Translations under genes and position numbers: made by a program
Shown here: positions 3,181 to 6,619 of the stretch, piece by piece
Numbering within the stretch: the first letter of the stretch is position 1
Layout of the letters: every line of letters begins with the position of its first letter
Notes under the pieces: model-generated
Told to the model about the DNA's origin: nothing
Seen by the model: only the letters and a program-made list of their open reading frames with translations
Databases searched by the model: none
Virus record (IMG/VR): IMGVR_UViG_3300025151_004231
Coordinates: 1 to 64,000 of that record
Source: a virus
Direction: 5' to 3' (one strand)
Length of the DNA: 64,000 nucleotides

Positions 3181-4116
3181 ATGCAAAAAGTAGAACATAT
3201 TGATATTACTAAATTGGATTTAACAGACTACGTTGAGTCGTTAAAGAACACATCTTTCTCGTCCAGAGAAATTTACAATGCTTGTCAAATCTATAAAGAT
3301 ATGATAGATGATCCTGACTGTACAATCATCTTAACGATTGCAGGATCAACGCAAGCCGCTGGTTGTCTTCAACTATACAGAGACCTAGTCAAATATAAAA
3401 TGGTTGACATTATAGTTGCAACTGGTGCTAGTGTTATTGATATGGATTTGTATGAAGCCTTAGGTTTTCATCATTACATCGGCACATCAAAAGTTGATGA
3501 CAATGAACTGAGAGAACAGGGTATTGATAGAATCTATGACACTTATATCTATGAAGAAGACTTAAAGAAAGTCGATCAATATATTTGCGACATTGCAACT
3601 GATTATGGTGAACCCAAGCCACAAAGTTCTAGTGAATTCTTGCATCTACTAGGAGAAAAGACTCCAAACAGTTTAGTAAATGAATGTTATAAAGCAAACG
3701 TACCTATCTTTTGTCCTGCTCTAAACGATAGTGCCGCAGGGTTCGGACTATTGAAACATAAAGTTGAAAATGAACGCCATGTTATTATAGATAGTGTACA
3801 AGACTTGAAAGAATTGACAGAGTTAAAGATTCAAGCAAAGAGTACAGGTCTGTTTATGATTGGCGGCGGAGTTCCAAAAAACTTTGCACAAGATATTGTA
3901 GTAGCGGCAGAAATGTTAGGGCATGACGTTCCGTTGCACAAATATGCCATACAGTTTACAGTAGCAGATGTAAGAGACGGTGCATGTAGCAGTAGTACAT
4001 TAGACGAAGCAAACAGTTGGGGTAAAGTTAGTGATCAAGCAACACAAATGGTATATGGAGAGGCCAGTAGTATCTTACCAATTGTCGCAAATTATGCATA
4101 CGTTAATAAAAAATGA
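3181..4116 (+). CDS. deoxyhypusine synthase-like / homospermidine synthase-like enzyme, 311 aa
   Basis: DHS-family enzymes use NAD+ to move the aminobutyl group of spermidine to a lysine (eukaryotic and archaeal eIF5A) or, in bacterial members, to putrescine or another amine. Visible here: NTSFSSREIYNA near the N-terminus, the nucleotide-binding region IILTIAGSTQAAG, IGGGVPKNF, and the catalytic-lysine block LDEANSWGKVS with Lys282. Bacteria lack hypusine, so making homospermidine or a related polyamine is the likely role. It opens an operon with agmatinase (ATGA overlap) and a SpeD-like protein. Substrate is inferred only. Confidence 0.85.
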   Translation: MQKVEHIDITKLDLTDYVESLKNTSFSSREIYNACQIYKDMIDDPDCTIILTIAGSTQAAGCLQLYRDLVKYKMVDIIVATGASVIDMDLYEALGFHHYIGTSKVDDNELREQGIDRIYDTYIYEEDLKKVDQYICDIATDYGEPKPQSSSEFLHLLGEKTPNSLVNECYKANVPIFCPALNDSAAGFGLLKHKVENERHVIIDSVQDLKELTELKIQAKSTGLFMIGGGVPKNFAQDIVVAAEMLGHDVPLHKYAIQFTVADVRDGACSSSTLDEANSWGKVSDQATQMVYGEASSILPIVANYAYVNKK

Positions 4117-4865
4117 ACTTCTTAGGAGTTGAATCTCACTCGTATGAAGACTGCAATGTACTTGTAGTCCCGTATGGCAATGAAGATAATGTATCTTATG
4201 GTACTGGTACTTTATATGGACCTCAAGCCATTATACGTGCTAGTCAAGAGGTAGAACTACATCCGTATCCTGATAATTTAAAAATACACACGTTATCGAA
4301 AACAAACGATCTCAGTCAAACTGTTAAACAAGCAAAACAAGACGGCAAGTTTGTAATGATATTAGGCGGAGATCATAGTCTAACATCACATGCTTACCAG
4401 CATTACAACACAGATATTATACAGTTTGATGCTCATTGCGATTTAAGAGATAGTTATTTAGGTAATCCACAAAGTCATGCTTGTGCAATGCGTAGATGTA
4501 TGGAACTAAATGAAGATACAAATCTTTATAGTTTTGGTATACGCAACATGAGCAAAAGTGAAGATAAGTATATTCAACAAAACATACACAGAATATACAG
4601 AGACGTTACACCAAAAGGAAAGGAACTATATCTAACGTTTGATGTTGATGCGTTTGACGTATCAATTATGCCTGCAACAGGGACTCCAGAACCGGGAGGA
4701 TTGTTATGGGAAGAAACGATAGAATTAATTAAGGCAGTCTGTAAACAAAACACGATTGTAGCAGTAGACATAGTTGAACTTGCACCGATTAAACATATGC
4801 CGGCATATGATTTTGTTGTCGCAAAACTATGTTACACCATTTTACAAGAACTATTTAAAAGGTAA
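4113..4865 (+). CDS. speB: agmatinase/arginase family ureohydrolase, 250 aa
   Basis: Binuclear manganese ureohydrolase. The ligand motifs GGDHS, FDAHCDLRD and TFDVDAFDVSIMPATGTP are all present, and EPGGL follows as in agmatinases. The most likely reaction is agmatine to putrescine plus urea. Arginase or guanidinobutyrase activity is possible. The start overlaps the TGA of the DHS-like gene (ATGA) and a SpeD-like gene follows four bases after the stop. The set implies polyamine production during infection. Confidence 0.88.
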   Translation: MNFLGVESHSYEDCNVLVVPYGNEDNVSYGTGTLYGPQAIIRASQEVELHPYPDNLKIHTLSKTNDLSQTVKQAKQDGKFVMILGGDHSLTSHAYQHYNTDIIQFDAHCDLRDSYLGNPQSHACAMRRCMELNEDTNLYSFGIRNMSKSEDKYIQQNIHRIYRDVTPKGKELYLTFDVDAFDVSIMPATGTPEPGGLLWEETIELIKAVCKQNTIVAVDIVELAPIKHMPAYDFVVAKLCYTILQELFKR

Positions 4866-4869
4866 AAAT

Positions 4870-5259
4870 ATGGAAAAAGTTGTTCCAGAACACAAGCACC
4901 TCATTATTCGTGCTGAAATTAAAAATGCTCCCAAAGATCCTGATTGGGTAAAAGAGTGGTTATCATCGTTAGTAGATAAAATTGATATGAAAATATGTAG
5001 TGGTCCACATACAGCATATGTAGATATTCCAGGTAACTCAGGCGTGACTGGCGTTGTAGTTATTGAAACAAGTCACATTGCAGTTCATGTATGGGACGAG
5101 CCCGACCCTGCACTATTTCAATTAGATGTTTATACATGTGGACCTTTTGATATGGATGTTATTTTTGATGACATTGATCAATTTAATCCATCTAAGGTAG
5201 AATGGAAATACTTAGATAGAGAACACGGACTGAACGAAGTGAGTAAATCTACCCAATAA
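4870..5259 (+). CDS. speD: SpeD-like pyruvoyl-dependent decarboxylase, 129 aa
   Basis: Family of S-adenosylmethionine decarboxylase, which self-cleaves before a Ser to form a pyruvoyl cofactor. The block VVIETSHIAVHVWDE followed by LDVYTCG matches the class, with candidate Ser68, His73 and Cys90. The residue before the Ser is Thr67 instead of the usual Glu, and the normal TWPE is VWDE. Start ATG 4870 is preceded by AAAAGG; a longer frame runs back into speB. It may make decarboxylated SAM, or be one of the SpeD-derived arginine or ornithine decarboxylases, which would feed the agmatinase. Confidence 0.85.
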   Translation: MEKVVPEHKHLIIRAEIKNAPKDPDWVKEWLSSLVDKIDMKICSGPHTAYVDIPGNSGVTGVVVIETSHIAVHVWDEPDPALFQLDVYTCGPFDMDVIFDDIDQFNPSKVEWKYLDREHGLNEVSKSTQ

Positions 5260-6005: not shown

Positions 6006-6034
6006 TTGACATTGGGTACCCATTCCAGTATAAT
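6006..6034 (+). promoter_or_regulatory. sigma70-type early promoter with palindromic GGGTACCC
   Basis: TTGACA, 17 bases, TATAAT. TGGGTACCCA (6013-6022) is a perfect palindrome in the spacer, ideally placed for a regulator that competes with RNA polymerase. The block AAAAGGC lies upstream of the -35 box. Confidence 0.92.
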
Positions 6035-6590: not shown

Positions 6591-6619
6591 TTGACATTGG
6601 GTACCCAATTTAGTATAAT
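6591..6619 (+). promoter_or_regulatory. sigma70-type early promoter with 14-bp palindrome
   Basis: TTGACA, 17 bases, TATAAT. The spacer holds ATTGGGTACCCAAT (6596-6609), a perfect palindrome sharing its core with the promoter near 6006. The same AAAAGGC block precedes the -35 box. Confidence 0.92.

Follow-up and report, generated by a model that had tools for sequence, protein, structure and literature searches.

A phage-borne polyamine cassette proposed to convert arginine to homospermidine by way of caldomycin

Layout of the cassette and its surroundings

The window analysed here is a stretch of 64,000 nucleotides that forms the first half of a virus record of 128,446 bases (IMG/VR IMGVR_UViG_3300025151_004231). 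At positions 3181 to 5259 of its plus strand lie three abutting or overlapping genes encoding a deoxyhypusine synthase (DHS)-family enzyme, an arginase-family ureohydrolase, and a small pyruvoyl decarboxylase, a total of 690 residues in about 2 kb. The first gene (3181–4116, +) encodes a CdmS-like protein of 311 residues that covers the entire DS domain (PF01916, E = 1e-88), the second (4113–4865, +) an agmatinase-like ureohydrolase of 250 residues (PF00491, Arginase, E = 8e-47), and the third (4870–5259, +) a SpeD-fold, pyruvoyl-dependent decarboxylase of 129 residues and proposed SpeDA type (PF02675, AdoMet_dc, E = 3e-15). The first two genes share 4 bases (ATGA), whereas the third, preceded by AAAGG, begins 4 bases past the agmatinase-like stop. 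For the third gene, the ATG at 4870 was preferred over the mechanical TTG start at 4774 because its relatives start there. The alignments, proposed earlier as a check for the loss of catalytic residues, revealed that none had been lost: the metal, catalytic, and pyruvoyl-forming residues were all present across the three enzymes.

Most genes of the window are on the minus strand, and the cassette belongs to a plus-strand block (about 1.1–7.6 kb) that also contains a phosphoesterase gene, a WYL_2 protein gene, four tRNA genes upstream of the cassette (Arg, Arg, Met, and Trp; 2360–2787, +), and a cell wall hydrolase gene. The block is headed by a perfect sigma-70-type promoter, TTGACA-N17-TATAAT (1110–1138, +), and no plus-strand terminator-like site was found between this promoter and the end of the cassette. 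Sigma-70-type sites with at most one mismatch were enriched in the window (13 seen versus 1.2 expected), and the 1110–1138 site was found also in the relative L002 and, with a different spacer, in the relative L004. Early transcription of the cassette block by the host polymerase is a reasonable inference. Two near-identical perfect sigma-70 promoters (TTGACATTGGGTACCCA...) at 6006–6034 and 6591–6619 head small genes after the cassette and are kept in relatives. A T4-type late promoter (TATAAATA) near the cassette was considered and rejected, as the six sites in the window against about 10 expected gave no signal.

The replication genes are of the T4 type (family B DNA polymerase, DNA ligase, and an SbcC-like subunit), and the polymerase is closest to those of Sinorhizobium phage Phosso and Agrobacterium phage Atu_ph07 (46–50%). 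A megablast search for the closest DNA-level phage relative returned a tRNA as its sole match. A weak pointer to an alphaproteobacterial host comes from the polymerase and from the origin of the gene pair described below. Genes for NAD salvage, suspected by eye in the second half of the record, had no Pfam support and were dropped.

Family placement and active-site residues

Among the NCBIfam models, the DHS-like protein scored best with NF002699 (caldomycin synthase) at 455 bits, while the next model gave 280 bits. Because this score lies below the curated equivalog cut-off of 500 bits, we call the protein CdmS-like rather than CdmS. With the same model, phage relatives scored 446 and 479 bits, Thermus 537 bits, and alphaproteobacterial operon copies 577 to 583 bits. 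The phage protein is about 53% identical to the Thermus orthologues. Previously, Thermus CdmS was found to accept agmatine alone, and an agmatinase-family enzyme to convert its product, caldomycin, to homospermidine by hydrolysis (PMC10981699).

We mapped the CdmS residues proposed in that study, whose roles come from a docking model of the one CdmS characterised and not from a crystal structure, onto 109 sequences. Six of the seven were identical in the DHS-like protein (Ser67, Glu136, Asp143, Phe204, Glu293, and Lys299 in CdmS numbering); in its own numbering, Ser56, Glu125, Asp132, Phe188, and Glu276 correspond to the modelled substrate contacts and Lys282 to the catalytic lysine. At the seventh position, Leu286 of CdmS is replaced with a cysteine that is common to a subclade with Alphaproteobacteria and Syntrophaceae. 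Position 204 is Ile in the DHS proteins of a second phage group (see below). The 19 cyanobacterial SpeY-type proteins had Ala67, Met204, and mostly Tyr at 136, while human DHS has Asn, Asp, and Asp at positions 67, 204, and 286, respectively. This residue signature separates the DHS-family classes, and judged by it the phage enzyme probably falls with the agmatine-coupling class. With the caldomycin synthases (Thermus CdmS) as its nearest family, the DHS-like protein is proposed to join two agmatines, not two putrescines.

For the ureohydrolase, all six metal ligands (His88, Asp106, His108, Asp110, Asp177, and Asp179) were conserved in the alignment, in agreement with the intact metal motifs described earlier. 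Its score of 160 bits against PF00491 (cut-off 22) places it in the superfamily, and TIGR01230 (agmatinase) was its best model, although the 154.5 bits obtained are under the curated 174.3. The enzyme would probably act mainly after the coupling step, removing the two guanidino groups from caldomycin, and it may also convert agmatine to putrescine.

The SpeD-like protein has Ser68 (pyruvoyl), His73, and Cys90, with Asp76 where the proline diagnostic of AdoMet decarboxylase (AdoMetDC) stands. It thus has the residues of a SpeDA protein, namely the Ser, His, and Cys for self-processing and catalysis without the AdoMetDC proline. This proline is conserved in every bona fide AdoMetDC and is not conserved in the arginine-specific SpeDA proteins (PMC10407285); we equate it with the proline in motifs of the HTWPE type. 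The motif reads HVWDE in the window protein, HSWDE in pelagiphage HTVC201P, and HTWPE in the AdoMetDC-like copy of phage MaAM05. The best phage relatives were all pelagiphage proteins, HTVC201P included, together with one marine fosmid phage (41–50% identity). The HTVC201P enzyme accepts arginine, with a Km of 0.87 mM, but neither ornithine nor lysine as a substrate for decarboxylation, and it failed to restore spermidine (PMC9992855). Since one of the nearest relatives is proven to act on arginine and the diagnostic proline is an Asp, the protein is most likely an arginine decarboxylase of the SpeDA type, not an AdoMetDC. The original prediction of a pyruvoyl decarboxylase held, while its SpeD identity most likely has to change, given the absent proline and the pelagiphage relatives. 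The related SpeDC, a SpeD-derived ornithine decarboxylase, has four diagnostic residues (Gln, Thr, Phe, and Tyr).

Recurrence, selection, and origin of the genes

Two scans of 2.9 million IMG/VR contigs with short exact peptide patterns, which miss distant relatives, found the DHS gene in 17 other viral contigs. A SpeD-like gene was present in all 17, and the agmatinase gene followed the DHS gene in 15 of the 15 contigs that reach far enough (L006 and L014 end inside or just after the DHS gene). Among 50,697 phage records, a protein search returned nothing related to the window DHS. The view that a full cassette is unusual in a phage was thus upheld, and the 17 contigs, the Pfam domains, and the intact residues bear out a phage-borne polyamine cassette of three abutting plus-strand genes.

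The contigs fall into two groups. In the first (L002–L005, n = 4), the whole neighbourhood of the window is kept and the order is DHS-agmatinase-SpeD, while in the second, also T4-like (n = 13), the order is SpeD-DHS-agmatinase. Neighbours in the second group, recognised by eye, were sliding clamp, clamp loader, and RegA-like genes, and the one polymerase read was 43–45% like cyanophage gp43. An NTP-transferase-like gene (355–1116, −) and a cupin-like gene (38–358, −) (phrog_3980 and phrog_24762) adjoin the cassette block in all first-group relatives. In L002, the nearest relative (98% identical DHS), the DHS start codon is lost with a deletion of about 28 bases just upstream (L002:5990–6010), which may be genuine or an artefact of assembly. 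In all seven second-group loci examined, a perfect TTGACA-N17-TATAAT lies within the speD frame about 90 bases before the DHS gene (e.g., L010:5890–5918) and is either an internal promoter or a coding coincidence.

Comparison of the window with its relatives gave dN/dS values of 0.10–0.12 for the DHS gene, 0.09–0.17 for the agmatinase gene, and 0.07–0.09 for the decarboxylase gene, indicating that all three evolve under purifying selection and are kept as working proteins. The recurrence of the DHS gene and its partners in 17 other contigs and the strong bias of substitutions to silent sites show that the cassette did not arise by chance or through faulty assembly.

In the DHS tree, the two phage groups together made up one clade (support 100), nested in a larger clade (100) that also held 13 alphaproteobacterial copies and six other sequences. 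Likewise, the agmatinase tree had one phage clade (100) among alphaproteobacterial agmatinases that adjoin a DHS gene (100). In the SpeD tree, the second group was placed with the pelagiphages, apart from the first group (98/100), and near relatives (68–70%) of the window's SpeD in other phages had no DHS or agmatinase gene in the flanks read (up to 3 kb). Together, the three trees and the lone SpeD relatives suggest that the DHS-agmatinase pair most likely entered these phages in a single event, its source being an operon like those of Alphaproteobacteria, and that a decarboxylase was recruited separately in each group.

An agmatinase gene followed the DHS gene in 8 of the 13 alphaproteobacterial loci. 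In two alphaproteobacterial genomes (L120 and L121; 1.2 Mb, 30% GC at the locus), the pair comes directly after a gene of the PLP ornithine/arginine decarboxylase family, and the phage pair nests with pairs of this type in both the DHS and the agmatinase trees. This decarboxylase-DHS-agmatinase layout is the one reported for Ca. Pelagibacter (PMC9992855), and from their size and GC we infer that both genomes are SAR11; SAR11 strains are reported to carry a DHS homologue, dys2 (PMC8437039).

Other viral contigs contained related genes. L175:3995–6105 and L176 (IMG/VR 3300042352_001346 and 3300042306_001966) carry a second, unrelated agmatinase-DHS pair, adjoined by helicase- and primase-like genes, whose DHS belongs to a different subfamily (signature AKYNFEK) nearer the alphaproteobacterial L118. 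DHS-agmatinase pairs in viruses may have more than one origin. The 107-kb viral contig L174 has a SpeD-like gene (motif HTWDE) separated by about 3 kb from an agmatinase gene (L174:257–4621), and L173:2838–4921, filed as viral but possibly bacterial contamination, has divergent DHS-like and agmatinase-like genes.

The proposed route from arginine and its alternatives

We hypothesize that the cassette is a compact arginine to agmatine to caldomycin to homospermidine route expressed by the phage in the infected cell, a reading that we consider likely from the families, residues, and gene orders described above. The SpeD-fold protein would cleave itself, form its pyruvoyl group, and decarboxylate arginine to agmatine. 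The DHS-family enzyme would then use NAD to couple two agmatines, one of which passes its guanidinobutyl unit to the other through an imine at Lys282, giving caldomycin (bis-guanidino homospermidine). Finally, the ureohydrolase would strip both guanidino groups as urea to yield homospermidine, while some putrescine may form from free agmatine. Homospermidine, a polyamine that binds DNA and RNA, could serve as a polycation for phage DNA and translation. Since the protein match is to the CdmS-like family rather than to SpeY, putrescine is probably not the main intermediate; of the two products expected originally, homospermidine thus stays the probable one and putrescine probably falls away as the main intermediate. 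An arginine decarboxylase would supply the first step of the pathway, so that speE is not a missing partner. Indeed, the proposed pathway does not need SpeE, and the search for a spermidine synthase elsewhere in the genome, suggested earlier as a check, found none in the 128-kb record.

Some points weigh against this reading. The NF002699 and TIGR01230 scores lie below their cut-offs, Cys286 stands in place of the Thermus Leu286 and we found no assayed enzyme with this cysteine, and the DHS homologue of the similarly arranged Pelagibacter cluster has been named SpeY and regarded as a homospermidine synthase (PMC9992855). A possible, though doubtful, alternative is the classical order, in which the agmatinase would convert agmatine to putrescine and the DHS-like enzyme would act as SpeY, joining two putrescines. 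The presence of the agmatinase gene fits this order, as do the DHS homologues named SpeY in Pelagibacter and in speDA-speB-speY clusters (PMC10407285), and putrescine is the accepted substrate of the cyanobacterial SpeY-type proteins (Anabaena work, as cited in PMC9992855). However, those cyanobacterial proteins have Ala67 and Met204 where the phage protein has Ser67 and Phe204, and PRK00770 (homospermidine biosynthesis protein, SpeY) gave the phage protein only 173 bits of a required 450, compared to 455 bits with NF002699.

Because its fold is that of AdoMet_dc and several phages have true AdoMetDCs (PMC9992855), the SpeD-like protein could instead be an AdoMetDC or an ornithine decarboxylase that feeds host enzymes, with the other two genes separate in purpose. 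We regard this as unlikely: the AdoMetDC equivalog model TIGR03330 gave 51.4 bits (cut-off 75.65), the diagnostic proline is missing, the nearest relatives are proven or agmatine-raising arginine decarboxylases, the gene lies 4 bases from the agmatinase gene, and the record lacks speE. A genuine deoxyhypusine synthase acting on a translation factor would also be a DHS-family sequence with a catalytic lysine, but this is highly improbable, as no eIF5A gene was found in the 128-kb record, the acidic Asp243 and Asp316 of human DHS are Phe and Cys in the phage protein, TIGR00321 (deoxyhypusine synthase) gave 224 bits against a cut-off of 304, and every DHS model scored at least 175 bits under NF002699.

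The proposed caldomycin route most resembles that of Thermus thermophilus, where a DHS-family enzyme (CdmS, TTHA1570) is likewise paired with an arginase-family ureohydrolase, the aminopropylagmatine ureohydrolase (PMC10981699). The phage differs in having Cys286 for Leu286, a ureohydrolase only about 25% identical to a Thermus one, agmatine probably supplied by a SpeD-fold decarboxylase, and all genes in one compact operon. In Marinimicrobia, marine group II archaea, and other organisms, speDA-speB-speY clusters contain the same three enzyme classes leading from arginine to homospermidine (PMC10407285), but they are cellular, their SpeDA proteins belong to other clades than the pelagiphage type of the window, and their coupling enzyme is described as putrescine-using. 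The Ca. Pelagibacter ODC/ADC–DHS/SpeY–arginase/agmatinase cluster (PMC9992855, Fig. 2) has the layout of the operons that carry phage-clade DHS and agmatinase (L120 and L121), while its arginine decarboxylase is a 400-residue PLP enzyme and the one proposed for the phage a 129-residue pyruvoyl enzyme. Pelagiphage SpeDA (HTVC201P and relatives) is 45–50% identical to the window decarboxylase with the same active-site motif, but stands alone beside replication and ribonucleotide reductase genes rather than in a cassette.

Among viruses, chlorovirus PBCV-1, as cited in PMC9992855, also has all steps from arginine to homospermidine (ADC, AIH, NCPAH, and HSS), but it is a eukaryotic virus that uses four unrelated enzymes and the putrescine route. 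The 2023 virosphere survey detected neither a SpeY homologue nor a DHS-type enzyme among viruses, and among phages it detected no arginase-family protein; the polyamine genes seen in phages were mostly lone ones, chiefly SpeD, and one phage had both AdoMetDC and spermidine synthase (PMC9992855). In Microcystis phage MaAM05 (MW495066), we observed AdoMetDC, SpeDA-like, spermidine synthase, and agmatinase genes in a row (L102:2041–4819), apparently a whole arginine-to-spermidine route in one phage; used as bait for more phage cassettes, its agmatinase had no relatives in IMG/VR. An arginine-to-homospermidine route by enzymes such as those of the window is known from bacteria, and so far we have found no report of it in a phage in the open-licence literature.

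Taken more broadly, two T4-like phage groups would carry a complete, putrescine-free pathway from arginine through agmatine and caldomycin to homospermidine in about 2 kb, and agmatine coupling, proven so far only in Thermus, would be how the small-genome Alphaproteobacteria with an operon resembling the phage pair normally make homospermidine; we hold this combined proposal to be evenly poised. Through the cassette it can be tested directly whether agmatine, and not putrescine, is what the proteins named "SpeY" in marine bacteria couple. That three genes would cover every step from arginine suggests that a supply of homospermidine is important enough in the infected cell for the phage to carry the entire route itself.
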